64,000 bases of DNA from Roseimaritima multifibrata (GTDB lineage Bacteria > Planctomycetota > Planctomycetia > Pirellulales > Pirellulaceae). The DNA is taken from positions 7,006,001-7,070,000 of the forward strand of contig NZ_CP036262.1 in the NCBI RefSeq assembly GCF_007741495.1, written 5' to 3'. Made by a program: the position numbers and the translations under genes. The notes below the pieces were generated by a model. It saw nothing but the letters and a program-made list of their open reading frames with translations. It was not told where the DNA came from and did no database searches. This document shows, piece by piece, positions 47,818 to 64,000 of the stretch; position 1 is the first letter of the stretch, and every line of letters begins with the position of its first letter.

Positions 47818-49470
47818 ATGCTGTGCAAACTGACCGGTGGACGGCTGTACGATCCAACATCCGAACTGCGTGGCAAGGTGCAGGACCTGTTCTTAGAAGA
47901 CCAACGGATTGTTGCCGCTCCGCCGCCCGACCGGTCGATCGATAAAACGATCGACCTAGGCGGGCAAGTCGTTATGGCGGGTGCGATCGATATGCACACG
48001 CATATCGGTGGAGGCAAAGTTACGCTGGCAAAAATGCTACTGAGCGATTACCAGCGTGAGCGGACCATCCCCGGCGGAGTCGACGGATTCTTGCCGACGT
48101 CGGCAATTACCGGTCAGCAATACGCCAGGATGGGCTACGCGGCCTGCTTTGAACCGGCCGTGATCCCCTGCAACGCGCGGGCGGCCCATGCAGAAATGGC
48201 CGACACCCCATACATCGACACCGGCGGCTATTGCCTACTCGGTAACGACGACTGCCTGTTAAGAATGATCCGGGACGACGTCCCCCAGCCCTTCCTGAAT
48301 GACTATGTCGCCTGGATGGTCCAAGCCACACAGTGCATCGCGGTCAAAGTCGTTAATGCGGGCGGGATCAGCGCATTCAAATTCCAGCGTCAACTGCTGG
48401 ACGTCGATACGCCTCACCCCGAATATGGGATCACTCCCGGGCAGATCATTCGCCGCCTTGCGCGGGCGGTCCACGAAATCGGCCTTGTCCATCCACTTCA
48501 TGTGCACTGCAGCAACTTGGGCGTGGCGGGCAATATCGAATCCACCTTAAAAACAATCGCGGCGGCCAATGGTTACCCGCTGCATCTAACGCATGTCCAG
48601 TTCCACAGCTACGGCGCCGACGGCGAACACGGTTTCTCCTCCGCTGCGGAACGAATCGTTCAAGCCCTACAACGGCATCCTCTCGTCACGATCGACGTTG
48701 GACAGGTGATGTTTGGGCAAACGGTCACGATCTCCGCCGACACTGCCCACCAGACCACCAATCGCAAACATGCATCGCCGCGCAAGAGCGTGATCGTCGA
48801 CATTGAATGCGAAGCGGGCTGCGGAGTGGTCCCGTTCCGTTATCGCAAAAAGCGTTTTGTCTCCGCCCTGCAGTGGTCGATTGGATTGGAACTATTCTTG
48901 ATGATGGACGATCCATCGCGAGTTTTTCTGACCACCGATCATCCCAACGGCGGCGCGTTCACGACCTACCCGCACCTGCTCCGCTTGCTGGGCGATCGCA
49001 CGTTCCGTGAAACGGCACTTGCAGAAATCCACCCCGACGCGGCAGCCGCCAGCCAGCTTGGCGGGATGGATCGTGAATACAACCTGGACGACATCGCCAC
49101 CATGACCCGGTCGGCCCCTGCGGCAATCCTCGGCCTTCAAGACCGAGGTCGCTTGTCTCCAGGAGCGATCGCCGACGTGGTTTGTTACGAAGAAGACCCA
49201 GCAGGCAACTTGGAAACGATGTTCGCCGCTCCTAAAAATGTTTTCCGCCGCGGCAAACAGATTGTCACCGATGGGGAATGGACGCCGATCGATCTGCCTC
49301 ACGTCACCCTCTCGGCAAAGCCGCTTCACCATGCGGAACTGACCGATCAATTGACCGGTTCCGATTACTGGCAAGCCAGCTATCGCATTGAAAACTTAAT
49401 GATCGGTGACGACGAAATGGAACAGCACATCGGCAGCGAAGTAACCGTTGCAGGGAGGCATTCCCTTTGA
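47818..49470 (+). CDS. fhcA: Formyltransferase/hydrolase complex subunit A (formylmethanofuran dehydrogenase A-like)
   Basis: The 550-residue product is an amidohydrolase-fold protein like FwdA/FhcA. It shows IDMHTHIGGGKV (metal ligands H60, H62), GGVDGFLPTSAITGQQYARMGY, LVHPLHVHCSNLGVAGN and VFLTTDHPNGGAFTTYPHLLRLL. With FhcBCD it hydrolyses the formyl group carried by a methanofuran analogue to formate in the tetrahydromethanopterin C1 pathway, known from methylotrophs and planctomycetes. It overlaps fhcD by 4 bp (TTGA at 49467-49470). Confidence 0.93.
   Translation: MLCKLTGGRLYDPTSELRGKVQDLFLEDQRIVAAPPPDRSIDKTIDLGGQVVMAGAIDMHTHIGGGKVTLAKMLLSDYQRERTIPGGVDGFLPTSAITGQQYARMGYAACFEPAVIPCNARAAHAEMADTPYIDTGGYCLLGNDDCLLRMIRDDVPQPFLNDYVAWMVQATQCIAVKVVNAGGISAFKFQRQLLDVDTPHPEYGITPGQIIRRLARAVHEIGLVHPLHVHCSNLGVAGNIESTLKTIAAANGYPLHLTHVQFHSYGADGEHGFSSAAERIVQALQRHPLVTIDVGQVMFGQTVTISADTAHQTTNRKHASPRKSVIVDIECEAGCGVVPFRYRKKRFVSALQWSIGLELFLMMDDPSRVFLTTDHPNGGAFTTYPHLLRLLGDRTFRETALAEIHPDAAAASQLGGMDREYNLDDIATMTRSAPAAILGLQDRGRLSPGAIADVVCYEEDPAGNLETMFAAPKNVFRRGKQIVTDGEWTPIDLPHVTLSAKPLHHAELTDQLTGSDYWQASYRIENLMIGDDEMEQHIGSEVTVAGRHSL
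49452..49458 (+). promoter_or_regulatory. Shine-Dalgarno supporting the TTG start of fhcD
   Basis: AGGGAGG lies 8 bases before the TTG at 49467-49469. It is inside the end of fhcA and explains initiation at a TTG that overlaps the fhcA TGA stop. Confidence 0.7.
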
Positions 49471-50363
49471 ACATTCACGGAATCCCCATCGAGGAAACCT
49501 TTGCCGAAGCCTTCGACATGAAGGCGACGCGATTGATCCTAACGGCGCATGACCGTCAATGGGTCAGTGATGCCGCCCAAGCGTTTACAGGGTTTGCGAC
49601 CAGTGTGATCGCCTGCGGAATCGAAATGGGGATCGAACGCGAACTCACCCCACAGGAAACCCCCGACGGCCGGCCCGGAGTCGCGATCCTGGCATTTGCG
49701 GTATCCAGCAAGGAACTGGAAAAGCAAATTCCCCGCCGCGCTGGGCAGTGCGTCCTGACTTGCCCAACGACGGCATTGTTTGCAGGTATCGAAAGCCCCA
49801 AACCGGTTCCGCTGGGCAAAACGCTTCGCTTCTTTGGCGATGGATTTCAAATCAGTAAAAGCATCGGAAGCAAACGCTACTGGCGCATTCCGGTCATGGA
49901 TGGCGAATTCCTGTGTGAGCAGCAGACGGCCCGCGTCGACGCGATTGGTGGCGGCAACTTCTTCTTGTTCGGAGCCGACCTCGATTCCGTCACCATCGCC
50001 TGCCGCGCAGCAATCGCCGCAATCAAACCGCTTCCAGGGGTGATCACTCCGTTTCCCGGCGGAGCGACTCGCAGTGGTTCGAAAGTGGGATCCAAATACC
50101 CAGCCCTTTTCGCTTCGACCAACGAAGCCTACTGCCCTACGCTGCGGGGCTTGGTCGACACCAATCTTCCCGAACAAACCAACGTCGTGCTAGAAGTTGT
50201 CATCGATGGCCTGACGACCTCCGCCATCGCAGAGGCGATTCGCGTCGGTATCAGAGCGGCATGCGAAGCGAAGACCAAGCAACCATTGGTCGCCATTAGT
50301 GCAGGCAATTATGGTGGAAACTTAGGAAAGCATCACTTTCACCTGTACGAGGTACTGGCATGA
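49467..50363 (+). CDS. fhcD: Formylmethanofuran:tetrahydromethanopterin formyltransferase
   Basis: The 298-residue product matches Ftr/FhcD in length and sequence: IEETFAEAFDMKATRLILTA at the N-terminus, TSVIACGIEMGIE, RAGQCVLTCPTTALFAG, GGGNFFLFG and PFPGGATRSGSKVGSKYPALFASTNEAYCPTL. It moves the formyl group between tetrahydromethanopterin and the methanofuran analogue. Initiation is at TTG with a strong AGGGAGG site. It overlaps fhcA by 4 bp and fhcC by 4 bp, so all three are translationally coupled. Confidence 0.96.
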   Translation: MNIHGIPIEETFAEAFDMKATRLILTAHDRQWVSDAAQAFTGFATSVIACGIEMGIERELTPQETPDGRPGVAILAFAVSSKELEKQIPRRAGQCVLTCPTTALFAGIESPKPVPLGKTLRFFGDGFQISKSIGSKRYWRIPVMDGEFLCEQQTARVDAIGGGNFFLFGADLDSVTIACRAAIAAIKPLPGVITPFPGGATRSGSKVGSKYPALFASTNEAYCPTLRGLVDTNLPEQTNVVLEVVIDGLTTSAIAEAIRVGIRAACEAKTKQPLVAISAGNYGGNLGKHHFHLYEVLA

Positions 50364-51214
50364 ACCTAATCGAACTTGAATTGGTTCAGGCCCCGCGTTT
50401 TCGCATCGACATGCGGTCGATCCATCCGACAGACTTGGCAACACGAACCGCTTCCCAGATCGAACACCTTGAATTGCCAATCGGCAGACAAACGATCCCG
50501 CTGGGCGAACTATTCAAAGTCCGCTGTGGCAACGACGATCATTCGGACGCAACCATTCGGCTTCGCGGCGATTGCCAATCCTGTGATTCCATCGGCCATC
50601 GAATGTCCGCAGGAGAATGGATCGTCGAAGGAGACTGCGGCGACTACTTGGGAAAAGAGATGCAAGCGGGATCGATCACCGTTGAAGGCAACGTCGCCGA
50701 TCATACCGCCCAAGCGATGCGAGGCGGACAAATCAAAATCCGCGGCAACGTCGGCGACTACCTTGGTGGCCCCGCATCCGGCGAGCGTAGTGGGATGTCG
50801 GGCGGAGAGATACACGTCAGCGGAAATACCGGCAACCAGACGGGATATCGTCTCCGTCGAGGGACGATCATTATCGAAGGCAACGCGGGGAAAAACACAG
50901 CCGCTGAAATGGTGGCTGGGACGATCGCGATCCACGGGCGGGTTGGCGATCACATGGGACATGGAATGCGCCGCGGCACCATTCTGTTAAGCCAGCGACC
51001 TCCGCTTTCTCCGTTCGGATTCACGGAACCACGCCGCGAATCCCCTGCGATTCTGTCGATCCTGCTAACGCAATTTTCCCAAATCACCAATGGCGAATCG
51101 CAATTCGTCAATCAATTGCAAACCAACCTTCACGATTCACATAGAGTCCTTGGCGACAAAGCCGTGCAAGGTCAGGGTGAGATATTCTGGTTCGCAAACG
51201 AATTCGTAGCGTAG
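50360..51214 (+). CDS. fhcC: Formyltransferase/hydrolase complex subunit C (FwdC-like)
   Basis: The 284-residue product has the repeated G-x-x-G-x-x-x-G pattern of the glutamate-synthase-alpha C-terminal beta-helix fold, as in FwdC/FhcC: GDCGDYLGKEMQAGSI, GNVADHTAQAMRGGQI, GNVGDYLGG, GNTGNQTGYRLRRGTI, GNAGKNTAAEMVAGTI and GRVGDHMGHGMRRGTI. It is a structural subunit of the complex. It is the last gene of fhcA-D-C; fhcB is not adjacent. Its 3' end overlaps the convergent phospholipase-like gene by 43 bp. Confidence 0.94.
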   Translation: MNLIELELVQAPRFRIDMRSIHPTDLATRTASQIEHLELPIGRQTIPLGELFKVRCGNDDHSDATIRLRGDCQSCDSIGHRMSAGEWIVEGDCGDYLGKEMQAGSITVEGNVADHTAQAMRGGQIKIRGNVGDYLGGPASGERSGMSGGEIHVSGNTGNQTGYRLRRGTIIIEGNAGKNTAAEMVAGTIAIHGRVGDHMGHGMRRGTILLSQRPPLSPFGFTEPRRESPAILSILLTQFSQITNGESQFVNQLQTNLHDSHRVLGDKAVQGQGEIFWFANEFVA

Positions 51215-51570
51215 GCCAACCGCTGCGATTTATTAAATGCTTTTGTGCCAAACCGCTTCGTGGAAACATACATCAAATGGGCGGTGATCCGGCAGAGAAT
51301 CGGTTTACCAGAGCATCCGCAGCTTGATTTCATTTGGTTGTAGAAATTCCGATCACAGCTCGCTTTGTCGACCCCAGGAATGCCATAACAAGCATCATGA
51401 GCACGGCAATAGGGACGCCAGTCCGCGTTCCCAACTCCCTGTGGAATCAAATTGCGAAGCGGTCCGGTCAAACCGTCTGGACCACAGGGGCAACGATCCT
51501 TATCCGCGGAATAGACGGTACCGGAAATCGAAATTGAAACAGCCGCAAAAAGCAACAGAACGCGATTCAT
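51172..51570 (-). CDS. Small secreted phospholipase A2-like protein
   Basis: From the ATG at 51568-51570, with GAGG about 8 bases upstream, the product is 132 residues. It has a signal peptide (MNRVLLLFAAVSISISGTVYS) and then a Cys-rich domain with the calcium-loop-like CGPDGLTGPL and the catalytic pair CRAHDACYG (H58, D59), the hallmark of PLA2-fold enzymes. CDRNFYNQMKSSCGC adds the disulphide cysteines. It would hydrolyse the sn-2 ester of phospholipids outside the cytoplasm. The 3' end overlaps fhcC on the other strand. It lies about 120 bp downstream of the M50/HlyD gene on the same strand; a link to that system is possible but unproven. Confidence 0.82.
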   Translation of the reverse strand: MNRVLLLFAAVSISISGTVYSADKDRCPCGPDGLTGPLRNLIPQGVGNADWRPYCRAHDACYGIPGVDKASCDRNFYNQMKSSCGCSGKPILCRITAHLMYVSTKRFGTKAFNKSQRLAYATNSFANQNISP

Positions 51571-51687
51571 ATCAACCTCAACATTAAAAAGGGGCAGGCC
51601 TCTTCGTTTACTTACTCGACGGGCAGCAAGCTGGTTCCGTCGAACCACTCAAGTCTCTTCGAAGTCAGGACGACATACAAGGACGGA

Positions 51688-53754
51688 TCATCTTTCTCCT
51701 CTCCTGACCAATCGTGCTGGCTGACCTCCCTTGAGGCCAACGGGCGGATTCAGCAGCGTCACTTCTAGTTTCAAATGAGGCTCTACTAATTGAGTCGCTT
51801 GGTCGCTGCGAGGATCCATCTGAATCGCTAGCGGGCCGCCGTTGGAGGCAATCAGCGAACGATGAGGCGCCACCAACTGAGCATGCCTATCGACCGACAG
51901 CAGTTCTGCCGAAACCACCTTGCCAGCGACTCGCACCTGTAAATGCGAATCTAACAACTCGCTTAATCCAGGCAAATCGGTTTGCGGAATCGCGACAATC
52001 GCTTTGATCCTAGACGTATCGATCACACGTGCCACGCCATCCCCCTGCTCCACCCATCGGCCCACCATGTCTTCGATTCCCGCAGCGACCACCACCCCGT
52101 CGCGGGGAGCCAGCACGGTCAGCGAAGTCAACTTCTTTTCAATATCCTGAATTTGCAAAGCAAGTGCTTCGGCGGATTTACGTTGAGCGATTGCCAGTCC
52201 ATTTTCATGGCGTTGTTGGTAGCCGCGACGCTGCGCTTGCATCGCTTGCCATTCTGCATTGGCCGCCGCCAAACGGGTATGCAAACGAGGGTTCTCCAAT
52301 CGGAGAAGCGGGTCTCCCTCTGCGACTTGCTGGCCATCCTGAACCCAGACCTGAGCGACAAATCCTTCGACATCGGTTCGGATCGGATTTGCATCGACGA
52401 ATTCGATCGCGGCGGGATACCCCTGATCATAGAACGATGCTGCCCAAGAAACGCCAACTCCGCCACCACCCAACAACAATGCAATCAAGGTTAAACGCAG
52501 AAGGACTACCGGTCGCTGCAAACAGGCCTGTCCAGTTGCCTTATAGATTTTGCCCAACAAAGGAATCCCCAACGCAAGCACTAGCACGCCCGCCAGCACC
52601 ATGCCGAAAATCCCCAACCACTGCACCGCTGCCCACAGCAAGGCGGCGATTACAAACAGCCGGTAAAATGCCGATGCGGTCCCAAACAGCAGAATGCCAG
52701 TCGATCGCTGCTCGGCGTGGGGATCGGTTTGAGCCAAGCACAACCACGTCATCGCGGACTGGAAAGCTTGCTGCCCATCGGTCGCCAGATTCGGTTGATC
52801 CAACCAGTCGATCAATGCGTAGTAGCCATCCAATTTAATCAACGGATTCAGATTAAACAGGACCGAACCAACGCTGGCGGTAACGGCGACCGTCGCCCAG
52901 AAGTGAAGCCAAAGCGGGGATTCCGAAGCCGTCCAAGCGAAGATCGCAAACGCAGAGATCGTCAATTCCAGATAGATCCCCGCCAGCGAAGTTGCAATCC
53001 GCTTCCAGCGAGAGCGAATTCGATAGGCGTCGGTCAAATCGACATACGCGACCGGAGCCACAACCATCCAAGCGAAACCGATTTCACCAACTCGACCACC
53101 AAACTTGTGACAACTAACCGCATGAGCCGCCTCGTGCACAACCTTCAGCACGAACCACACTGCGGCCAATTTCAACCATCCCAGTGGACTCCACAATCCA
53201 GCCAGGCTATCTCCCAACTCCGGCAAACGCTCCACTGCAATCCAGCCGGCAAGCATCCACAACAGGCCGACAACACAAGCAATTGGAAAGTTAAATACCC
53301 AGCCCGTGGCGGCCGTCAGGGTGTCCAACCAACGGCCTCCCTGCAGCAGCGGCACAGGGATCCAGGTCAGCGACGCTTTCCGTCGATTGAGGCTCGGGTC
53401 CGCTTGATTTGCGGCGTTCTGAAAAGCACCGGTAAACAGTTGCTCACGCCTAGCCCACAAAACCAGACTTTCGGTTTGCTCGACGCTTAGTGCACAGCCT
53501 TCCTGGGCAGCCAGGGCCCGCGCCTCGGCAATGGTTCGTTCCCCATCCAAGCGAGCCAGCAAGAGGGCTTCGTCTTTGCCGACTCGCAAAAAGCGATCTC
53601 GGTCGGAACTCCGGCCAACCGATTTGATCGCTGGCTTCATCAATCGATACCACTGTTTACCTGACCGATCCGAATGGACCGACACGCGCACGCCCGCACT
53701 CATCCGGGGTTTGCTTTGCAGCAAATCGATGCAGTTCGGAGCGTTCGTGTTCAA
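51688..53754 (-). CDS. M50 peptidase-like membrane protein fused to HlyD-type adaptor
   Basis: The 688-residue product has an N-terminal region (about 38-110) that loosely recalls a PqqD-like winged helix. About eight membrane segments (150-440) follow, with the zinc motif H207-E-A-A-H211 and the second ligand motif NPLIKLDGYY, as in site-2-protease/M50 proteins. Residues about 460-688 form a periplasmic HlyD-type arm: VEGFVAQVWVQDGQQVAEGDPLLRLENP, a coiled-coil hairpin, then LTVLAPRDGVVVAAG. The start is TTG at 53754 with AGGGAGG upstream; an ATG at 53703 is an alternative. It belongs to the secretion cluster up to 59997, and could serve as its inner-membrane component. Confidence 0.82.
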   Translation of the reverse strand: MNTNAPNCIDLLQSKPRMSAGVRVSVHSDRSGKQWYRLMKPAIKSVGRSSDRDRFLRVGKDEALLLARLDGERTIAEARALAAQEGCALSVEQTESLVLWARREQLFTGAFQNAANQADPSLNRRKASLTWIPVPLLQGGRWLDTLTAATGWVFNFPIACVVGLLWMLAGWIAVERLPELGDSLAGLWSPLGWLKLAAVWFVLKVVHEAAHAVSCHKFGGRVGEIGFAWMVVAPVAYVDLTDAYRIRSRWKRIATSLAGIYLELTISAFAIFAWTASESPLWLHFWATVAVTASVGSVLFNLNPLIKLDGYYALIDWLDQPNLATDGQQAFQSAMTWLCLAQTDPHAEQRSTGILLFGTASAFYRLFVIAALLWAAVQWLGIFGMVLAGVLVLALGIPLLGKIYKATGQACLQRPVVLLRLTLIALLLGGGGVGVSWAASFYDQGYPAAIEFVDANPIRTDVEGFVAQVWVQDGQQVAEGDPLLRLENPRLHTRLAAANAEWQAMQAQRRGYQQRHENGLAIAQRKSAEALALQIQDIEKKLTSLTVLAPRDGVVVAAGIEDMVGRWVEQGDGVARVIDTSRIKAIVAIPQTDLPGLSELLDSHLQVRVAGKVVSAELLSVDRHAQLVAPHRSLIASNGGPLAIQMDPRSDQATQLVEPHLKLEVTLLNPPVGLKGGQPARLVRRGER

Positions 53755-53762
53755 GCGGCTAA

Positions 53763-53769
53763 CCTCCCT
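53763..53769 (-). promoter_or_regulatory. Shine-Dalgarno supporting the TTG start at 53754
   Basis: On the minus strand AGGGAGG ends 8 bases before the TTG at 53752-53754. This favours the TTG over the in-frame ATG 51 bp downstream. Confidence 0.65.
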
Positions 53770-53943
53770 AGGGACGTCCGATTTACAAGTTGACCGTTTC
53801 GCCGATCGTCATTGTTCTAAATGAGTGTGGCAGTTGTTTGATTGCAGAAACCAGCAGTCTTCCTGCTCTCCTAAAGGAGCGCAAAAACAACTTCGTCACT
53901 CGCACTTTCTAATTACACATTGCCGGAAAAATGTCATTTACGA

Positions 53944-55401
53944 TTAAATCCAAGTTCGGATCTGTTGCCACATCCTTTGCAGCAGGCACCAAGCCGCCGG
54001 TTTTCGGTCGGTCGCAATGGTTGCATTACCCTGCATTCCAGGTTTAAGATCAGAATTCGAGTTATCGACGGTCATGGTCGCGGTAAATGCGTACTTACCG
54101 GCTTCATTCAGTTCCCCTCTTGGAGCGACTCGGGCAATTTTCAATCCGGTTTGACGTCCAGCGGCCTCCAGTCGCATGGTGACTTCCTGGCCCGCTTGAA
54201 CATGCTGGATCTGATCGGAAGGAATCTCCAACTTAGCAATCATTTGCGTTAACGGAGCGATCTCCAGGAGCGTTTGCCCTTCGGTCACAGGGACACCAAC
54301 CATCGGTTGCAGGTCTTCTCCCAAGACGACGCCTGCAACGGGACTGCGGATATCCGCTTGGGATAGCTGAAGTTGCAGCTGATCGATTTCAGCTTGTAAT
54401 TTCTTCGCCTGCAATCGAGCCAATTCGGCATCGCCCTGTCGACCGGCCGCGACATGGCCTGAACGCTCGGCACCAATACGTTCGATTTCTGCCGTCAGCG
54501 CCGTCCACTGATTCAGCGCTTCCTCACGATTCAGTTCAACCAGAATCTGGCCCGCTTCGACGGTATCGCCGGGAGCAACCCGAATCCCTTTTAGGCTTCC
54601 ATCAAAGGGGACCGCTACGATTCGAGAATGCTCAGGTTGCAATGTGACATTTGCGCGCACAGGGTAATGCATCGGCAAGAAACCACAAGCGATGACGCCT
54701 CCGATTGCGGTTCCCACGACCAACGACCGTTGGGACCGCAAGCGTTTCTTCCAGCGTTCCCACCGCTGTCCCCATCGCGACGGCTGACCACGATCGATCG
54801 CCCCCAAAATGCCAGCCAACACGACTTGAATACGCAAGCAGAACGCTTCATGGTTCGGCTCCATCTGTGCGCGACCAAACCAGATCGCCTGCAGGCCGCC
54901 GATCGGCGTATCATCATCCTGCAGCAGAGGCAGGGTAAACGTCGCGTGCAGCCCCGCTTCGGGGTGATGAGCCGCCAAGGCGATTCGCAATCCGTTTGCG
55001 GCCAACGCCGAATCGGCGACCGCTTCGTTTGTTGAACCTCTCAATGGGCGTGCTGCAAACAGTGCTTCCGAAAGCGAAGCGGTTATTTCTTCGGTAAGAG
55101 CTTCGGCAATCGCGACTCGACCGGCCGCGATCGGCTGTACCGCCAGACCATTGTGCTGGCTACAGATTACGACGATGTCCGCCTGCAAGTATTCCAGGAT
55201 CAAATCAGCCGCTTGCTGTCGTACTGCGACCGGCTGGACCTGGTTCAATAACCGTCCACAAAGGTCCAAACCGGCCTCCGCGTTCAGGTCATTCGCATTC
55301 CCAGCGGCAGCCCTTTGAATCGCCTCCAGCAAACTTTGCGAGGACGATTCAGAGCCTACTTGAGGATCATGACCTTTCGTCTGGGAATCTAGCAAGTTCA
55401 T
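53944..55401 (-). CDS. GAF-like domain fused to HlyD-type membrane adaptor
   Basis: The 485-residue product starts with a ~215-residue cytoplasmic part that looks like a GAF domain (ADLILEYLQADIVVICSQ, LHATFTLPLLQDDDTPIGGLQAIWFG). A membrane helix at about 225-245 (VVGTAIGGVIACGFLPM) leads into a periplasmic HlyD arm: VPFDGSLKGIRVAPGDTVEAGQILVELN, a Gln/Leu coiled-coil hairpin, DIRSPVAGVVLGEDL and a beta-barrel domain to residue ~460. Its ATG overlaps the upstream adaptor gene by 4 bp. The fusion suggests that a cytoplasmic small-molecule or protein signal controls the adaptor; this is inference. Confidence 0.82.
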   Translation of the reverse strand: MNLLDSQTKGHDPQVGSESSSQSLLEAIQRAAAGNANDLNAEAGLDLCGRLLNQVQPVAVRQQAADLILEYLQADIVVICSQHNGLAVQPIAAGRVAIAEALTEEITASLSEALFAARPLRGSTNEAVADSALAANGLRIALAAHHPEAGLHATFTLPLLQDDDTPIGGLQAIWFGRAQMEPNHEAFCLRIQVVLAGILGAIDRGQPSRWGQRWERWKKRLRSQRSLVVGTAIGGVIACGFLPMHYPVRANVTLQPEHSRIVAVPFDGSLKGIRVAPGDTVEAGQILVELNREEALNQWTALTAEIERIGAERSGHVAAGRQGDAELARLQAKKLQAEIDQLQLQLSQADIRSPVAGVVLGEDLQPMVGVPVTEGQTLLEIAPLTQMIAKLEIPSDQIQHVQAGQEVTMRLEAAGRQTGLKIARVAPRGELNEAGKYAFTATMTVDNSNSDLKPGMQGNATIATDRKPAAWCLLQRMWQQIRTWI

Positions 55402-56366
55402 TTCCGATCCAAGAAGGGAAACTGTCGAATGGTTTGATTCAGTGACTGTTCGCGATCCAGACTGGAACGTTTGGGTTGCAAGCGCACGTCGACCGCGATA
55501 CCGGCGGAATACTCTAGATTTGGATTTGGCAAACGAAGTTTGATGTGCCGCATTCCTGATTGGGCGTCGACGACTGGCGAGACAAATTCAACGACTGCCT
55601 CAAGTGTCTTACCGCGAATCGTGACTGGCAAAGAATCGCCAACCTCAATGACTCCCAATTGGCGGGCGTTCCCGCTGGCAATAATCTTCAGTGGATCAAG
55701 CTGTACGATTCGAAGCAGATGCGGGTCGGCAGGGGAAACCGCCTGCCCGACATCTTTCACTTGTTCAACAACCACCCCATCGATCGGAGATTTGATCGTC
55801 AGCCGCGCCAATTGAGCTTCCGCCTGGGCAAGTTCTAGCTGGCGGCGATGAGTCAATTCTTCATAAGCCTGAAGACGAGCGGTCGCTTCATCCAAATCGA
55901 GCCGCGCATTCCACAGTTCTTGGTCGGTGGCATGTTCGCGAGAGTGAAGTTCCTTCACCTGCTCAAGACGTCGTTTTTTATCGGCCAGCGAATGTTTTGC
56001 CGTATCGATTTCACCCTTCGCGGTCGCTGCCGAACGGGCGACTTCGACGGCGATCCTAACGACGGAATCATTTAACTGAATCAGCGTTTGGCCCGCCTTA
56101 ACGGTCTCGCCTTCTTCGGCCCAAACATCTTGGATCACGGCCGTTTCAGAAGATCCGATCAGGATATCGCGGTATGCCTGCGTGTACGCTTCCAGCTGAA
56201 TCGGTGCCGAACCTTTCGATTCCCCGGGCGTTCCGACGCCAACAAAATCGGAGCGTTCAGGTCTTGCCGACGAGCGACCGGACTCCTGGGCCTGGGCTAC
56301 CACAGGAGCGCACGTCAGCAGGCTAAAGAGAACAAGACTCCATGGACGGGTCCTTGAATCGATCAT
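55398..56366 (-). CDS. Periplasmic adaptor (HlyD/RND membrane fusion protein)
   Basis: The 322-residue product has a signal peptide (LVLFSLLTCAPVVAQA) and a short membrane-fusion-protein layout: VIQDVWAEEGETVKAGQTLIQLND, a ~70-residue coiled-coil hairpin (about 115-170), LTIKSPIDGVVVEQVKDVGQAV and a beta-barrel domain with ASGNARQLGVIEVGDSLPVTI. Such proteins bridge inner-membrane exporters to TolC. It overlaps the SecA-like gene by 4 bp upstream and the GAF-HlyD gene by 4 bp downstream. No inner-membrane pump gene is next to it. Confidence 0.88.
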   Translation of the reverse strand: MIDSRTRPWSLVLFSLLTCAPVVAQAQESGRSSARPERSDFVGVGTPGESKGSAPIQLEAYTQAYRDILIGSSETAVIQDVWAEEGETVKAGQTLIQLNDSVVRIAVEVARSAATAKGEIDTAKHSLADKKRRLEQVKELHSREHATDQELWNARLDLDEATARLQAYEELTHRRQLELAQAEAQLARLTIKSPIDGVVVEQVKDVGQAVSPADPHLLRIVQLDPLKIIASGNARQLGVIEVGDSLPVTIRGKTLEAVVEFVSPVVDAQSGMRHIKLRLPNPNLEYSAGIAVDVRLQPKRSSLDREQSLNQTIRQFPFLDRK

Positions 56367-58201
56367 ACGGAGGCCTCTGCATTCGATGAATGAAAAAATG
56401 ATTCGTGGTCCATATCGCGACGAGCCATCGAGGCCCGAGCCGCCACGGCCCGTTTATCAGCCCGCCTGGCAGCACGACGTACGATCGCTGGCAAACTGCC
56501 TGGATCACGCACCGCGGGAGCCGCTTCCTGAACTAACGAGTCCTCAAGACAGATAAATGTTCTGGCGGTGCCCGGCTGACCTTGACGGGCGGCACGCCCG
56601 ATCAACTGCCGGTCCAAGCGAGGTGATTTTCGCGGCGAAACCACAATCACATGCAAACCACCAGCCTCTTCGACGGCGGGCGAAATTTTGATATCGGTTC
56701 CCCGACCAGCAAGGTCCGTGGCAATCGTGATCGCACCTGGATCTCCTGCCGCCGCGACGATGTCCGCTTCCTCAGCATCTTGAATGCCATTCAAAACCTG
56801 CAATCGGTAACCGACCAATCGCAAAAAGGCAGCCAATTCTTCAGACTGTCGAATCGATTCGGTCCCCAACAAAACAGGGCGACCGGAATCAATCACCTGC
56901 CCGATTTCGATCGCGATCGATTCGTACTTCTCTTGCTGCGAATGAAAAAGACTGGTTGGAAGCACTTGCCGTCGTGACGGAATACGCAGTGGAACGTTTA
57001 AGGTTTGCAAACCGTAAACGTCTAGCAATTCATCTTTCGCATCCAACGCCGTGCCGCTGCAACCGCCAAGCTGTTGGTACAAATCGAAGAATCGCCAACG
57101 CGATATCTGAGCCGTCGCATCTAGTTCGGCCGACACCGCGACGCCCTCTTTGACCTCAACTGCCTGATGCAAACCCGCCTGCCACTGTCGGTCGGACTGG
57201 ATTCTTCCGGTCGCCGGATCGATGATCTGAATTTTTCCATCAACGACAACGTAGTCGATATCACGAACCACCCGCTGCCTCGCTTCGACCGCATGCTGGA
57301 CGTATTCCTGCCAGGGGCGTAGCAGTTGCGATCGTTCGATGCCTTTAGGCGCATGCTGTGCAACACGCTGCAGACCGGCTGCGGTCCACTGGATGGCAAA
57401 GCCAGAACGTCCAGGAACCCAATCGATCGATTCCATCAGATCGGCGGCAACCGCATCGGCCTGACGAAAGATCTGCGATGCGTTCTCTTCAGCCGACGGG
57501 GGGCCGGGGTTTGAAAGAACTAACGGAGTCCCCGCTTCATCAATCAGAATATGATCGATTTCATCAATCAAAGCAAAATGGCGACGTCGATTCAAAAGTT
57601 CAAGCGGGCGTCCCTTCCCTAGGGCCGAGAGCTTGCGTTGTCGTTTGGCGGTGACGTCCCGGAGAAAATCGAAAGCGAAATCATCGGCGGTACCGTAGGT
57701 CACATCCGCTTGATACGCGTGCCGTTTATCCTTGGCAGACAACGCGGTTTCGACCAATCGAGTCCGCAGCCCTAATCGAGCGAGTGCAGGCCCGATCAGT
57801 TCGCAGTCGCGTCGCGCCAAATAACTATTGGCCGTTGCCACGTGCACGCAACCGCCACGCACCGCAACCATTGCCGCAGCCAGGCCAACCGAAATGGTTT
57901 TACCTTCACCGGTTGCCATTTCGGCAACGTTTCCCATCGCCATGACGGCAGCCGCCAAACGCTGCACATGGTAAGGAACCGGCCCGACCTCTTGCTGGAT
58001 TGCAAGGCAAGCAAGCGCTAAGGCGCGTTCGTGAATCGCATCGGTATTGGAATTCTTTCGCCGCAAAGACTGCAAACGAAGCGATTCGTAGGCAGCCGCT
58101 AACGGCACCCCAGCAAACTCTTTTTCATAGCTTGCCGAAGCGACAGCCATCCGTTCTGCTGTGGAAGCTGCAACGAGGTTCTGTTGAGGACGCCGAATCA
58201 A
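56363..58201 (-). CDS. Shortened SecA-like ATPase
   Basis: The 612-residue product clearly derives from SecA: MATGEGKTISVGLA (Walker A, 95-108), ANSYLARRD, YGTADDFAFDFLRD, LIDEIDHILIDEAGTPLVLSNP (211-231), ATDLAGRGTDIKIS and GRAARQGQPGTARTFICLED (motif VI). SecA drives proteins through SecYEG. This protein ends about 55 residues after motif VI, so it lacks the helical scaffold with the two-helix finger and the zinc-binding tail, and its N-terminus is also different. It is therefore not the housekeeping SecA (normally ~850-1000 residues in planctomycetes). Its gene is overlapped on both sides by tolC-like and hlyD-like genes (ATGA), which points to a secretion role. Confidence 0.88.
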   Translation of the reverse strand: MIRRPQQNLVAASTAERMAVASASYEKEFAGVPLAAAYESLRLQSLRRKNSNTDAIHERALALACLAIQQEVGPVPYHVQRLAAAVMAMGNVAEMATGEGKTISVGLAAAMVAVRGGCVHVATANSYLARRDCELIGPALARLGLRTRLVETALSAKDKRHAYQADVTYGTADDFAFDFLRDVTAKRQRKLSALGKGRPLELLNRRRHFALIDEIDHILIDEAGTPLVLSNPGPPSAEENASQIFRQADAVAADLMESIDWVPGRSGFAIQWTAAGLQRVAQHAPKGIERSQLLRPWQEYVQHAVEARQRVVRDIDYVVVDGKIQIIDPATGRIQSDRQWQAGLHQAVEVKEGVAVSAELDATAQISRWRFFDLYQQLGGCSGTALDAKDELLDVYGLQTLNVPLRIPSRRQVLPTSLFHSQQEKYESIAIEIGQVIDSGRPVLLGTESIRQSEELAAFLRLVGYRLQVLNGIQDAEEADIVAAAGDPGAITIATDLAGRGTDIKISPAVEEAGGLHVIVVSPRKSPRLDRQLIGRAARQGQPGTARTFICLEDSLVQEAAPAVRDPGSLPAIVRRAARRADKRAVAARASMARRDMDHESFFHSSNAEASV

Positions 58202-59967
58202 AATGCATTCTCCTCAAGCATCTGAGAATCAAGCATTGGCGTCGCGAGGTCCGCTCGTGTTTGATCATCGCTGTCATGCAGGTCACCGCTGGGCGATTGC
58301 GTGAAGTGTGCGGACCTTAACAGAGTCCCCACAGCGCGATGGTACTGCAAGATCACAATGTTTAAATCGGCCTCAGCAGCGGAGAGCGACGTTTCTTCGT
58401 CGGCGACGCGAACCTGAGCATCAATCAGATTTTCCAGTAACAGAATGGCCGATCCATCCGCAACCGCCATGGTTTGCCAACGATCTTCCAGGTACCACAG
58501 TTCCGCTCGAGCGGCCTTTGCGGAAAGCTCTCGCTGCAGCATGGTTTGATAGTTTACTTCCATTAACGAAAGAGCCAATTCAACATCGGCCCTTGTTGTT
58601 TGAAGTGCAGCATCGTATTCAGAGATCGAGCGTTGGAGTTCTAGTTCATTGCGTTGGACAAGCCCTCGAGCGGCTCGATTCCCTACCGCACGTTCCCACA
58701 CCAAGCCGACGTTTACGCTAGGGCGACCATCGACAAATTGGCGACCATAAGCCGGAAAAAGGTTTCGATGCGCATTCAAACCCGCAACATAAGTCCCTGC
58801 TAATAAATCCAGTCGTGGCAGCAACTGATTACGGCTGACACCTAATCGCAAGCTTGCTGCACGAACTTCGCGGACGGCCTTTACGATTTCCGGCCGACCT
58901 GTCAGCGCCGTTTGAACAACCGTTTCGCGGTCCCACGAAGGAGGGACGCGAGTCGGCAGTTGCGCGGGCACCAATTCGGTCTCGAAATCGACCTGCCCAA
59001 TAAATCGCTGTAGGCGTGTCTCGGCCGTATCGGCGGCGGCGGCAATCGTCATCAATTCCGCACGACGCTGGGCCGCGGCTACCTTCGCCCGCAAAATTTG
59101 TCGACTGGTTGCATCCAGTTTCGACCGCTCGGTTAACGATACAACCAATTTGTCAGCTTCCTCGACCGCGCGCCGGCGAATTAAGAAGGCTGCTCGGGTT
59201 TTATAAAGCTGCCAGTACGACGTGCCAACACTCAGCACGTGGTCTTGTAACCTGGCCAATGATTCGGCTTCGGTCGCCGCCGTACCTAGCTGGGCTTCCA
59301 CGACGCGGAAGTAGTTCACTTCTTTTCCTCGACCGGCCAACAGTGGCTGAGTGACGGTCAATTCCAACCTAGATGTCGACTGCGGGTTCGGAACAAGAAA
59401 ATCCGAATTGTTTCTTTGCCAGCCTGAACGCTGTGAGATTTCCCATTCGGCTCCGGTCGTCGACCGCTTTCGAACCCCCAAACCACCATTCAGTTGATCG
59501 TCTATAAATCGCCCGGTGGTCGAACCTGTCGTTAGCACGCTGCCGATTGGGTCACTTCGATTTGCCCAGCTTGTCTCGAGAAAGTTCGTCCAATCAAAGG
59601 CCGCTTTTTGACGGGTGATATCGGTCCGCCGGATTTGAGGTTCGACCCGAATAATCTGCACTTCGGGCGAAAATTCAAGCGATTCCGCAGTTGCGTCGTC
59701 TGCAGAAATGGCCAAAGCGCGGGGCCCAATTCCTAGTGGCAACAGAATCGGTTCGTGCCACCAAAGGTCGACGCCCGTGGGAACCAAGCGACTTTCCGCC
59801 AATTCCACGCGTTCCTGATCACGCGAATCGCGAGAGATCGGTTCAGGTAATGAACCTGGAACCGAATCCTGAGCCAGCAACTTTTTAGGGCACGGCAGAC
59901 TTCCGAAAGCGCACAGAACCAACCCCAATAGAAGGGTTTTCCCAATATTTTGATGGGGGCAGGTCAT
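58198..59967 (-). CDS. TolC-family outer-membrane efflux protein
   Basis: From the ATG at 59965-59967 (589 residues) the product has a signal peptide (IGKTLLLGLVLCAFGSLPC), whereas a TTG at 59997 would add 10 residues. After a long linker, two repeats of TolC-type helical hairpins and strands follow (about 190-575): SRLELTVTQPLLAGRGKEVNY, SVGTSYWQLYKTRAAFLIRRRAVEEADKL, LRLGVSRNQLLPRLDLLAGTYV, PSVNVGLVWERAVGNRAARG and a final helix region with DAQVRVADEETSLSAAEADLNIV. It would form the trimeric outer-membrane channel of the cluster. First gene of the unit; its 3' end overlaps the SecA-like gene by 4 bp. Confidence 0.9.
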   Translation of the reverse strand: MTCPHQNIGKTLLLGLVLCAFGSLPCPKKLLAQDSVPGSLPEPISRDSRDQERVELAESRLVPTGVDLWWHEPILLPLGIGPRALAISADDATAESLEFSPEVQIIRVEPQIRRTDITRQKAAFDWTNFLETSWANRSDPIGSVLTTGSTTGRFIDDQLNGGLGVRKRSTTGAEWEISQRSGWQRNNSDFLVPNPQSTSRLELTVTQPLLAGRGKEVNYFRVVEAQLGTAATEAESLARLQDHVLSVGTSYWQLYKTRAAFLIRRRAVEEADKLVVSLTERSKLDATSRQILRAKVAAAQRRAELMTIAAAADTAETRLQRFIGQVDFETELVPAQLPTRVPPSWDRETVVQTALTGRPEIVKAVREVRAASLRLGVSRNQLLPRLDLLAGTYVAGLNAHRNLFPAYGRQFVDGRPSVNVGLVWERAVGNRAARGLVQRNELELQRSISEYDAALQTTRADVELALSLMEVNYQTMLQRELSAKAARAELWYLEDRWQTMAVADGSAILLLENLIDAQVRVADEETSLSAAEADLNIVILQYHRAVGTLLRSAHFTQSPSGDLHDSDDQTRADLATPMLDSQMLEENAF

Positions 59968-60234
59968 GAAACGTTCAATTCCGTCGAACAGCAGCAAGCT
60001 TCTGGGGACATCCGTGCCGCCAGCGATTCTCGCATTGCCTCACTCAAACCATCGGTCCACAGATACTTTGACTTGTCCTGGAGTCCTCAATTGCCGGTTG
60101 TATCGGATGTGCGAGAAACAGAAACCGCAAGAAGTTCAACCGCATTGGTTCGGGACGCTAACAAGAATAAATCCAACCTAGGTTTTTTATGGACCGTCGC
60201 CCCGCAGTTGCCTTTCTTCACAGTCAGTTAAACG
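59968..60234. promoter_or_regulatory. Divergent promoter region of secretion operon and giant surface protein
   Basis: About 240-270 bp separate the oppositely oriented tolC-like and giant-protein genes, so both promoters must lie here and may be co-regulated. I could not pick -10/-35 elements with confidence. A TAA in frame at 60229-60231 closes the giant-protein frame just before its ATG. Confidence 0.5.
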
Positions 60235-63200
60235 ATGCCTCAAAGTCGCCAAACCGCTCGCCGCACCACACGCACCGCCACTCCGTTGACGCGGTTAAGA
60301 AATCGGTGCGAAGACTGGTCAAACCGGGCGCGATACCTACTTAGGGAAACGCTTGTCAGTGAAGCACGTCCCTCCAGCGGAATCGATGCCGCGCGACTGG
60401 AGGACCGCATCCTCTTAAGTGCTTCCCCCATCGCTCAGGCGATCGGCGAAGGAACTGAAGCGATCACGCCGCTTCAGTTTGAACCAGCTGTAACGGTTAC
60501 AACGCCAGAAAAGTCCAGTTCGATGTCGGCTCAAGCGAAAGAGCGAGCCTTGGTCATCATCGATCCTACGGTCCAAGACCTCGATGCGCTGGTAAACGAT
60601 CTTGAACTGGCCGAATCAGCCGATGTCGACTTCTTGTTGCTTGATAGTGAACAAAATGGAATCGATCAGATCAGCCAATACTTGGCAAGCCAAGACGGAA
60701 TCACCCAAATCCACTTGCTGACGCACGGCAACGAACAAGGCATCCAACTGGGCAACACCTGGTTGAACAATGAACAATTTGCAGCCCATTCCGCGTCGTT
60801 TGCCAGTTGGTCTGCAGCGTTAACTTCCGATGCCGACCTGCTCGTCTATGGATGCGATCTGGCAAGCAGCGCCGACGGCCGTCAGTTACTGCAGAATATC
60901 GCCGCAACCACCGGCGCCGACGTTGCTGCCAGCGATGACGTGACCGGGCATGCCAACCAGCACGGTGACTGGCAACTGGAATATGAAATCGGAACGATTG
61001 ACACCCTGATCCCATTCTCTGCCGAATTCCAGCAAGCGTGGCATCACGTGCTTGCGGCCAACGTTGCCCCCACGATTCAAGCCCCCAGCGGCGAAACAAT
61101 GTCCGCCGGTGGCGAAATCACCTTTTCAAACGACCGCGGAAACGCGATCACCGTAAGCGATACCGACGCGGGCAGTCTTGCGATCGAAGTTCAGATCAGC
61201 GTCGGTTCGGGGAACTTGACCCTTGCGTCCACGACAGGATTAACGTTTGTCACCGGAGATGGAACCGAAGATGGCACGGTAACGTTCCGCGGCGACCAAG
61301 CGGACATCAACACCGCCCTGGACGGCCTGCTGTACAAACGAACGAACGCTCAAACCGGGCAGCAAGCGTTACTGATTTCCGTGGACGACCTTGGAAATTC
61401 TGGCACCGGGACCGCGCTGACCGATTCACACACCGTTCAGATCGGAGTCGTCGCTGAATTCGACAATGCCAATCAGTGGATTGCCAATACATTCCTTGCA
61501 TCCGAAACGAATTCCAGCGAGCACCGCGGTTCCGCCCAGTCGCTTGCCGTTTCTAAAAGCGGCAAACAGGTAGCCGTCTGGAGCGTGATTGGATTGGCCA
61601 GCAAAAGCGAATTTTCGCTGCTGGACACAGACGGCACGTTGATCAAACGAGCCTCAACTCCGCTGCACGGAAGCCAGTTGAGTGTCGCCATCGATGATGT
61701 CGGGAATTTCGTTGTCGTTGGTGTCGACAACGATACCGACCAAATTTTTGCACAGCGATATGACTCGGCCGGCAATACCATCGGCGCTGCCTTAACACTG
61801 AACACTCTCTCTCCAGAACAGGTCGCTCCCACCGTTGCCATGAATGGGCAAGGCGATTTCGTGGTTTCTTGGGAAGCTAAAACAGCAGGCGATTCGACAA
61901 TCTATTTCCAACGATTCAATGCAGCCGGAACTGCCGTCGACGCCGCGCGAGTACAGGTCTCCTTGGGGACGAATCAACACGGTCCCTCCGTTGGTATCGA
62001 TCAAAACCAGAATGTCATCGTTTCCTGGAACGAAGATGGTGGAATGTATTACACAACCTACCGCGGAGGAATACTCTCTAACAAAATCCTCTTAAGTTCC
62101 ACCAATGAGGCCGGACGCAGTTCGTTGGCAATGAGCGAAATCGGCGAAGCGGTTATCGCCTGGGATGAATCGCCAGCGCAAATGCTTCCCAATAAATCAC
62201 AGGTCCGCTACCAGCGGATAAATGCTGCTGGCGAAAGGATCGGCAATGTTGAATTTGCTGCGGCAAACCTAACCATCGACCATCACTCTCCTGACGTAGC
62301 GTTGGATGAATCCGGCGACTTTGTCATCGCTTGGGACGGAGACGATGGGATCACGTTGCGACGGTTTGGTGCCAATGGATCGATCGGCTGGGAAGAGCAA
62401 ATCGATCTTTCTGCGCCGACAGCTAAAAACGTCAGTATCGGCATGCTGGATCAAAATAACATTGCCGTCATTTGGGCCGAATTTAATGGTCCTTCGATCT
62501 CCAATGGGATTCAACACACCACGCTCCATACTCAGGAAGTAACGGTCACCACCACCGCGGATACCAACGACGGGACAACAACAAGCATCGCGGACCTGAA
62601 ATCCAACCGCGGAGCCGACGGCCAGATCTCTTTACGAGAAGCGATCCAAGCAGCCAACAATGAAGCCCACGCCGTACGGATCATATTGCCAGCGGGAACC
62701 TACACTTTCACTGGATCGAATAGTCACACGTTTGAGCAAGACATCTTTATTGAAGGGCAAGGGATCACCGAAACGATTATCGATGGTGGGCTAATGACGA
62801 CGACATTCGTTGCGGACAACGATGCAAGTCTATCGATGTCCTCGCTGACACTCACCGGTGGCAATGGCACGTCGGGCGGCGCCATTCGCTTGGATGACGC
62901 AAGCGATTTCAGCGGGTCAAAGATTCGATTGACAGCCAATTTCTCGTCGGCCAACGGAGGCGCCATTGAAGGCAACACGGGAGAAATTGCAATCCAAAAT
63001 GCAGAACTAGATACCAACAATGCAGGTGGTAACGGCGGCGCTATTAGCCATTCAGGAGTCCTGTTTCTCGAAAATACAACGTTGCGTGCCAATCGCAGCG
63101 GGGCGAATGGCGGAGCGATTGCCAGTCTGACCACCGATGCGTCCACGTTTCTGTTCAATGTGACCATTAGCGGAAACCAAGCTGGCAGTACTGGAGGTGC

Positions 63201-64000
63201 AATCCTTACCGATCAAAACCTTACCATTTCTCAGTCGACCATCGCCTTTAACACTGCAGCGTCGACCTACGGGATTCACACGACCGACGACGGCGACAAA
63301 ATCAAGGTCTCCAATTCGATTCTCTACAATCCCGGTGGCAACAATGCGAACGCCACGTTTACGTCGTTCGGCGGAAACTTAGACGGCGATGCAACGGCCG
63401 GATTTGCGGAACTGACAGATCAAAATAACGTCGACCCGTTATTGCAAACGCTGGCCTATAACGGGGGCGTCGGGCAAACCCATGCATTGGACGCGGCAAG
63501 TACCGCGATCGATAGTGCGACGGACGTATGGACCTCCCTATTCGACCAAACCGGACAGATGCGAATGGGCGGCGCGGACATCGGAGCCTTCGAAACTCCG
63601 ACGTCACTCCTCACCGTCGACACAAAATCGGACGTCGCGGATGGCGACACCAGCTCGATTGCAAACCTGCTGCTCGATCGTGGAGCCGATGGAAAAATCT
63701 CTCTGCGTGAAGCCATCCTAGCGACGAACAATACTGCGAATACGAATTCAAGTCCCGACCGCATTCAGTTTGAAATAGGCGAAATCGGACCTTGGGTTAT
63801 CGACGTCACCTCCGCTTTGCCAACGATCACCGATGCGGTCAACATCGACGCGACAACGCAAACCGGTTACGTCGATCGCCCCCTGATCGCATTAGATGGT
63901 GGTGCAATCCTAGAAGATGGGATCAAGATAGGTACCGGCGGCAGCAACAGCACCATTCGTGGTTTACTGATTCGTGATTTTGGTTTAAGCGGAATCTCCG
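60235..64000 (+). CDS. Giant surface/extracellular protein: planctomycete leader, DUF4347, cadherin-like, CSLREA modules (3' end outside)
   Basis: The frame is open from the ATG at 60235 (in-frame stop just before) to the window end, at least 1255 codons. Residues 55-65 are LEDRILLSASP, the planctomycete extracellular-protein N-terminal motif (Planc_extracel). DUF4347 covers about 103-240 (ALVIIDPTVQDLD, IHLLTHGNEQGIQLG, DLLVYGCDLASSADG). A cadherin-like domain covers about 275-410 (VAPTIQAPSGETMSAG...). Two CSLREA segments (GADGQISLREAIQAANNE and GADGKISLREAILATNN), at about 800 and 1150, precede right-handed beta-helix-like repeats (GNGTSGGAIRLDDAS, GGAISHSG). It is probably a surface adhesin or matrix protein, and is divergent from a TolC/HlyD/SecA-like cluster that may export it. 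Confidence 0.87.
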   Translation, partial: MPQSRQTARRTTRTATPLTRLRNRCEDWSNRARYLLRETLVSEARPSSGIDAARLEDRILLSASPIAQAIGEGTEAITPLQFEPAVTVTTPEKSSSMSAQAKERALVIIDPTVQDLDALVNDLELAESADVDFLLLDSEQNGIDQISQYLASQDGITQIHLLTHGNEQGIQLGNTWLNNEQFAAHSASFASWSAALTSDADLLVYGCDLASSADGRQLLQNIAATTGADVAASDDVTGHANQHGDWQLEYEIGTIDTLIPFSAEFQQAWHHVLAANVAPTIQAPSGETMSAGGEITFSNDRGNAITVSDTDAGSLAIEVQISVGSGNLTLASTTGLTFVTGDGTEDGTVTFRGDQADINTALDGLLYKRTNAQTGQQALLISVDDLGNSGTGTALTDSHTVQIGVVAEFDNANQWIANTFLASETNSSEHRGSAQSLAVSKSGKQVAVWSVIGLASKSEFSLLDTDGTLIKRASTPLHGSQLSVAIDDVGNFVVVGVDNDTDQIFAQRYDSAGNTIGAALTLNTLSPEQVAPTVAMNGQGDFVVSWEAKTAGDSTIYFQRFNAAGTAVDAARVQVSLGTNQHGPSVGIDQNQNVIVSWNEDGGMYYTTYRGGILSNKILLSSTNEAGRSSLAMSEIGEAVIAWDESPAQMLPNKSQVRYQRINAAGERIGNVEFAAANLTIDHHSPDVALDESGDFVIAWDGDDGITLRRFGANGSIGWEEQIDLSAPTAKNVSIGMLDQNNIAVIWAEFNGPSISNGIQHTTLHTQEVTVTTTADTNDGTTTSIADLKSNRGADGQISLREAIQAANNEAHAVRIILPAGTYTFTGSNSHTFEQDIFIEGQGITETIIDGGLMTTTFVADNDASLSMSSLTLTGGNGTSGGAIRLDDASDFSGSKIRLTANFSSANGGAIEGNTGEIAIQNAELDTNNAGGNGGAISHSGVLFLENTTLRANRSGANGGAIASLTTDASTFLFNVTISGNQAGSTGGAILTDQNLTISQSTIAFNTAASTYGIHTTDDGDKIKVSNSILYNPGGNNANATFTSFGGNLDGDATAGFAELTDQNNVDPLLQTLAYNGGVGQTHALDAASTAIDSATDVWTSLFDQTGQMRMGGADIGAFETPTSLLTVDTKSDVADGDTSSIANLLLDRGADGKISLREAILATNNTANTNSSPDRIQFEIGEIGPWVIDVTSALPTITDAVNIDATTQTGYVDRPLIALDGGAILEDGIKIGTGGSNSTIRGLLIRDFGLSGIS

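Follow-up and report, generated by a model that had tools for sequence, protein, structure and literature searches.

The systems closest to the one considered here all move proteins or peptides across the bacterial envelope. Our subject is a cluster of five genes beside a gene for a giant protein in Roseimaritima multifibrata, within a stretch of 64,000 nucleotides (contig NZ_CP036262.1, positions 7,006,001 to 7,070,000 of the forward strand) that we refer to as the window. The nearest precedent is a module described by Kamneva, Poudel and Ward in 2015 (PMC4452313), in which secondary SecA_DEAD proteins that have lost the wing-scaffold domain are accompanied by HlyD, M50 and GAF neighbours and in some cases by OEP, with no ATP-binding cassette (ABC) transporter. 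One operon of the module that the paper names is META1p2402-2399 of Methylobacterium extorquens AM1. Those authors proposed SecA as the ATPase and M50 as a possible pore, placed the SecA_DEAD family beside actinobacterial SecA2, and called the biological role unknown. The window cluster shares the genes, the SecA domain loss and the ABC-free locus, and its short SecA with HlyD and M50-HlyD neighbours fits the module. The central idea is therefore already in print, and the statement in a preliminary description of the window that no such system had been described does not stand. What we add is a probable cargo, its leader, a PqqD-like domain and operons that lack SecA; none of these was found in the accessible part of PMC4452313, where a word search gave zero occurrences of cadherin and of DUF4347. 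No later paper on the module was found in the open-licence literature, and the accessible parts of a 2021 review of tripartite systems (PMC8277102) and of PMC3482391 hold nothing on it. Within the open-licence literature, the cargo class and the pairing of its leader with the module appear to be new.

Three further systems provide points of comparison. Type I secretion (HlyB/HlyD/TolC) likewise uses HlyD adaptors and a TolC-like channel for giant adhesin-like cargo, but the window cluster has no ABC exporter and its proposed signal is N-terminal. ABC transporters containing a C39 peptidase and the leader proteases of ribosomally synthesized and post-translationally modified peptides (RiPPs), among them MpaP and YydH, share leader recognition and a protease joined to an exporter; in the present case HlyD is fused to a membrane protease of M50 type, and the cargo is thousands of residues long. 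Accessory SecA2 systems also place a second SecA beside the canonical one, whereas the short SecA considered here lacks the wing and the two-helix finger and is linked to HlyD and TolC, with no SecY2 seen in the cluster.

We conclude that the cluster is probably an ABC-free export machine of TolC/HlyD type for very large proteins that carry an N-terminal LEPR-XLL leader. At the level of sequence, comparison among genomes demonstrates the linkage of the genes, the pairing of leader and M50-HlyD within genomes, a swap of N-terminal signals on DUF4347 proteins, a PqqD-like domain in the M50-HlyD family and a truncation common to the short SecA proteins. The features of the window are as follows.

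58198-59997, minus strand: TolC-like outer membrane factor (OEP; Pfam OEP 1e-22), with a hydrophobic segment at residues 18-36
56363-58201, minus strand: short SecA-like ATPase (Pfam SecA_DEAD 1e-69, P-loop_SecA 2e-40, SecA_PP_bind 6e-19)
55398-56366, minus strand: periplasmic adaptor of HlyD/RND_mfp type (Pfam HlyD families; TIGR01730 at 116.3 bits, cut-off 94.9)
53944-55401, minus strand: second, longer HlyD-type adaptor (Pfam HlyD families) with an extra N-terminal region, which in some relatives is GAF
51688-53754, minus strand: M50-HlyD fusion (Peptidase_M50 1e-6, 28.3 bits, cut-off 27.2) with a C-terminal HlyD/lipoyl adaptor
60235-64000, plus strand, continuing past the window end: giant DUF4347/cadherin-like protein, the probable cargo (DUF4347 1e-52)
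60397-60441, plus strand: LEPR-XLL leader motif of the giant protein (region LEDRILLSAS), after a basic N-terminus (NF012209 profile)

The observation made in the preliminary description is confirmed, with corrections of detail. The gene families lie where it had placed them, HlyD_3 and HlyD_D23 being matched in three window proteins, except that Pfam detects no GAF domain in the window's second HlyD protein itself (the domain is detected in five of the 15 proteins in the second-HlyD alignment and in other relatives). The three 4-base overlaps that join OEP, SecA, HlyD and the second HlyD exist, but read TTGA, ATGA and ATGA in that order rather than ATGA throughout, and the M50-HlyD gene does follow on the same strand, 189 bases downstream and without overlap. 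The giant gene is divergent as described, at a gap of 237 rather than 240 bases from OEP, and its cadherin repeats fall outside the window: the protein has 2711 residues in the whole genome (locus L007), with eight Cadherin_4 stretches by Pfam, all beyond the window end and none in the window part. Pfam and NCBIfam profile searches of the cluster proteins found no ABC or resistance-nodulation-division (RND) gene, in agreement with what had been claimed. The genome, a single contig of 7.22 Mb, also encodes a canonical SecA of 1230 residues and a standalone short SecA of 740 residues; it holds five M50 matches and three DUF4347 proteins, each preceded by a LEPR-type motif, one of which scores 16.2 bits (cut-off 17). 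Another of its clusters (L110, G000:C1:6978000-6997900) has the order OEP-HlyD-HlyD-M50HlyD, without SecA, beside a LEPR-type protein of 1728 residues.

Profile searches for co-occurrence of these genes, which the preliminary description had proposed, find them linked again and again in planctomycetes, Verrucomicrobiota and Proteobacteria. Several of the locus sets were picked by SecA or M50, and neighbour counts are accordingly not rates across bacteria. Of 60 relatives, 51 have a match to the short SecA at E<=1e-95, and M50-HlyD is present in 25 of the 60 SecA-like loci fetched (60 of the 67 places listed besides the window), the remaining loci having SecA alone or being cut at contig ends. 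Two arrangements occur: OEP with, often, a DUF4347 giant, as in the window, or GAF-HlyD, HlyD and M50-HlyD near other LExR proteins. In a sample of 199 genomes from the window's phylum, 49 have an M50 match, HlyD partners are usual at the 58 listed M50 places that were read (54 plus four of the five in the window genome), and genomes with at least two SecA matches carry M50-HlyD in 27 of 28 cases, compared with 22 of the 171 others (p=7e-19). Among the best 80 M50 loci of at least 562 confirmed relatives, a set of M50-chosen named genomes with many short contigs, the commonest neighbour of M50-HlyD is another HlyD (71/80), followed by SecA (16/80) and OEP (15/80); the named relatives are mostly planctomycetes among the matches listed. 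In alphaproteobacteria the short SecA stands beside M50-HlyD in several operons (including L175, L178 and L179), with the order giant-DUF3467-HlyD-M50HlyD-SecA-HlyD-TolC in Methylosinus and a whole operon in Pontibrevibacter whose giant is annotated LEPR-XLL. The same pair is found in Verrucomicrobiota (L253, L274, L290), and in gammaproteobacteria a SecA fragment lies at the edge of seven of the nine best M50 loci listed, while L351 contains the whole gene. A plasmid search returned the M50 domain in 80 records and DUF4347 in 113.

DUF3467 (PF11950) is a possible further partner of the system, although it is absent from the window cluster. It was seen in 32 open reading frames (ORFs), 30 of them in M50-HlyD loci of planctomycetes and alphaproteobacteria alike (including L062, L080, L089, L090, L095, L103, L108, L174-L177 and L180), a count that is not a rate, the loci being mostly M50-chosen. 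A PDB search for likeness of DUF3467 to SecB-like chaperones gave no match (best E 0.16).

The leader consists of a basic N-terminus followed by LExRx[LM][LF] (LEPR-XLL; NF012209, cut-off 17 bits), and the window giant scores 20.7 bits against this model in the genome search and 16.0 bits as the window ORF. When the first 120 residues of large ORFs are scanned with the pattern [LFM]ExRx[LMFVI][LMFI], it occurs in 34 of 159 near M50 and in 10 of 74 elsewhere, for shuffled expectations of 0.65 and 0.35. No hydrophobic 11-residue stretch precedes the motif in 43 of 44 large motif proteins; N-terminal stretches of this kind are present in 36 of 47 OEPs and in 127 of 136 HlyDs. Leader and M50-HlyD are paired at the genome level in two phyla. 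In the phylum sample M50-HlyD is found in 15 of 16 LEPR-positive genomes (the exception is G223) versus 34 of 183 others (p=1.5e-9), and in Gammaproteobacteria in 26 of 28 (exceptions G345 and G482) versus 31 of 340 others (p=7e-22), where the sample is the class as defined by a centre genome, G261, that is itself left out of the counts. The pairing of DUF4347 with M50 is looser, at 33 of 44 gammaproteobacterial genomes and, in the phylum sample, 11 of 16 at a laxer threshold (8 of 8 otherwise). The loci with M50-HlyD hold 28 DUF4347 ORFs that are complete and distinct, and the leader stands on 27 of these, in hosts that include planctomycetes as well as E. coli, Burkholderia and Cupriavidus; the set includes L350, which was fetched for its LEPR hit, and the sole leaderless ORF is the second part of a split frame (L219) whose first part bears the leader.

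A further comparison involves 24 DUF4347-positive gammaproteobacterial genomes without a LEPR hit at the level of the hidden Markov model (HMM), whose N-termini were read. Among the 13 with M50-HlyD, all 12 readable genomes have the leader (G462, cut by a contig end, is left out), versus three of the 11 without M50-HlyD (p=3.4e-4); of the other eight, five have a Sec-like N-terminus (G303, G397, G455, G574, G434) and three neither. The pattern used here had been broadened, following the hydrophobic-stretch count, to admit V, I and Y; under the strict pattern G527 (QERRILFSAD) fails, which gives 11 of 12 and p=0.0028. The Sec-like class was judged by eye, on a maximal hydropathy of 1.9-2.8 in the first four genomes and on sequence alone in G434 (L347), and the M50-positive genome G325 also reaches 1.9. 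These counts indicate that DUF4347 tends to wear the LEPR leader where M50-HlyD is present and not where M50-HlyD was not found. DUF4347 itself was considered as the export tag and rejected because eight of the 11 M50-negative genomes carry leaderless DUF4347 proteins. The suggestion in the preliminary description that the giant protein is the cargo is supported as probable. Separately, four genomes (G509, G322, G376, G110) have open frames of 9,725-14,112 residues bearing LEPR motifs or DUF4347, and in G509 and G376 the coordinates put the end of the frame within a few kb of M50-HlyD. A Phaeobacter DUF4347 protein (L184) has no M50 or HlyD genes in the 30 kb shown, and no leader was flagged on it.

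The window M50-HlyD has a multi-span M50 metalloprotease domain with the motifs HEAAH and NLNPLIKLDGY, and the HExxH residues and distal aspartate (H154, E155, H158, D256) are invariant in a 27-row alignment. A PqqD-like N-terminal domain, a type of domain that binds leader peptides, appears to be a feature of the family and apparently a new one. A profile of 20 M50-HlyD N-termini has PqqD 3g2b (E=6e-6), TfuB1 6jx3 (0.013) and PqqC/D 5sxy (0.16) as its top three PDB matches, Pfam PqqD hits with E<=0.5 come from 13 of the 20 N-terminal segments, the best being 7e-7 (L177 is above the cut-off), and residues ~54-110 of the window protein align with this domain of its relatives. Among NCBIfam families the nearest to the M50 domain are the daptide and YydH/LiaK (epipeptide) maturation proteases, matched by 28 of 28 and 24 of 28 members respectively, with the window protein far under the equivalog cut-offs of both. 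From the PqqD-like domain and the likeness to RiPP proteases we infer, as the favoured interpretation, that M50-HlyD may bind and cleave the leader. The same likeness, together with the resemblance of the window HlyD to RND-type adaptors, would also suit a RiPP-like device for efflux of small molecules or peptides, with the giant neighbours incidental. We consider this very improbable given the giant-first operons and the pairing with the LEPR leader and DUF4347 across genomes of two phyla.

The window's short SecA comprises NBD1, PPXD, NBD2 and only the first scaffold helix, after which all 14 aligned short SecAs, this one included, come to an end. In none of the 14 does any residue align to E. 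coli SecA 661-870, which we take to be the wing and two-helix finger, hence our description of the short SecA as lacking both; the aligner placed a few terminal residues at E. coli 871-901. The motor core is retained: Walker A and Walker B occur in all 14 and GRGTD in all but one, and the window protein keeps all three. In a tree of 91 of 110 rows (19 standalone rows having been thinned by hand), the 75 short rows all fall on one side of the 16 canonical rows with a Shimodaira-Hasegawa-like approximate likelihood ratio test (SH-aLRT) support of 51, or 92 for 74 short rows without L206, and nine alphaproteobacterial and nine planctomycete cluster-linked short SecAs form a clade with SH-aLRT 100. 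The standalone planctomycete SecA was considered as a separate system and rejected: the copy of the window genome falls within a group that mixes linked with unlinked copies, and that genome's SecA-free M50 cluster L108 counts against such a reading as well.

The retained core, and the placement of the family beside actinobacterial SecA2 in the accessible part of PMC4452313, would be in keeping with export in two steps, in which the short SecA, like SecA2, would partner the housekeeping SecYEG at the inner membrane and the HlyD and TolC components would serve only the outer membrane. This is unlikely in view of the missing 661-870 region, the near absence of Sec-like stretches before the motif of the cargo proteins, and the operons that have no SecA.

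Such operons are present on E. coli plasmids, as on NZ_CP081687, where the order is giant-TolC-HlyD-HlyD-M50HlyD, the giant begins with a basic stretch followed by LESRQLFDGA, and neither a SecA nor an ABC gene is seen within the 26 kb shown. Of 5426 E. coli genomes, 24 have the HlyD-HlyD-M50 set in part or whole, 22 of them with 80% or more of its length, and 21 of its 25 places are on plasmids. A giant with TolC, two HlyD and M50-HlyD but no SecA is found in E. coli, Kosakonia, Burkholderia, Variovorax, Niveispirillum and Thalassospira, and an HMM search of these operon stretches with the SecA profile gave no match. SecA is thus not universal, so that the shared unit is the leader and M50-HlyD with HlyD, SecA being an add-on or otherwise replaced. 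The earlier proposal that the SecA-like ATPase and the M50 protein together replace the exporter therefore keeps its ABC-free, conserved linkage and loses some of the need for SecA; overall, that interpretation is partly supported.

Several observations weigh against the export machine that we favour. Operons without SecA are among them, as are the 22 genomes, out of the 49 with M50 in the phylum sample, that hold fewer than two SecA matches and the 34 of those 49 without an NF012209 hit at E<=0.01. LEPR proteins are also encoded away from M50 loci (the 10 of 74 large ORFs given above), and among ORFs of at least 1500 residues the motif is equally common elsewhere, at 6 of 7 away from M50 and 16 of 25 near it; exclusivity of the motif to M50 neighbourhoods was accordingly rejected. 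The three M50-negative genomes with the leader on DUF4347 (G514, G555, G392) are drafts, judging by their contig numbers, and the window M50-HlyD taken alone has no Pfam PqqD match at E<=0.1.

Two more such observations would suit another explanation, in which the giants leave by ordinary type I secretion through an ABC exporter whose gene lies elsewhere, and M50-HlyD processes or anchors them. The E. coli giant matches NF045619, the C-terminal model of the BapA/Bap/LapF adhesins, a group that includes type I substrates, and in Phyllobacterium (L187) the opposite strand encodes, 4.8 kb away from M50-HlyD, a type I ABC exporter of C39 type accompanied by its own HlyD. The preliminary description had held that an ABC exporter beside homologous clusters would speak against its proposal; there is none in the window cluster, and L187 is the one locus among those run through Pfam where a type I exporter lies nearby. 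A motif screen found an ABC-like ORF within 8 kb in only eight of 175 non-redundant M50 loci; L213 and L239 were left at motif level, and one of the six run through Pfam, that of L187, is an exporter, the others being an importer set on the same strand adjoining M50-HlyD (L139), lone ATPases (L128 and L163), an MlaE fusion (L232) and an SMC protein (L270). The screen covers the neighbourhoods of the loci, not the remainder of each genome. Since many operons come with a TolC and two HlyD of their own in addition to M50-HlyD, and the leader tracks M50-HlyD in two phyla, we regard the type I explanation as decidedly unlikely.

In the export machine as we picture it, the PqqD-like domain would bind the leader, and the M50 membrane domain would receive and cleave it, much as leaders are removed when RiPPs mature. 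Together with TolC and the other two HlyD proteins, the M50/HlyD assembly would form a path across the envelope, through which the short SecA, where present, may push the chain with ATP. The least certain points are M50 itself as the channel and the power source of the SecA-free versions. A wider proposal makes LEPR-XLL a leader dedicated to export, and M50-HlyD at once its receptor, its protease and the membrane conduit, on a route distinct from Sec, Tat and ABC-dependent type I secretion that operates with or without a SecA motor of its own and serves some of the largest bacterial proteins in several phyla. This we put forward tentatively, as somewhat less likely to be right than wrong.

Other genes adjoin the cluster. 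A small gene 39 bases downstream of M50-HlyD (51172-51648, minus strand) weakly resembles group XII phospholipase A2 (25.8 bits, cut-off 34); it was considered as a component of the system and rejected, as the other loci gave no relative. At 47818-51214 on the plus strand, three overlapping genes resemble, by eye, subunits of formylmethanofuran dehydrogenase/transferase (C1 metabolism).

A recognisable leader turns an orphan cluster, printed in 2015 without cargo or role in the accessible part of that paper, into a testable secretion pathway. If the proposed export machine is real, it would account for the exit of proteins of thousands of residues that carry no Sec signal, and the SecA core would have been reused without its SecY-engaging parts. 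The combination of a LEPR-XLL protein and M50-HlyD may also serve as an annotation rule for planctomycetes, verrucomicrobia, many proteobacteria and some E. coli.

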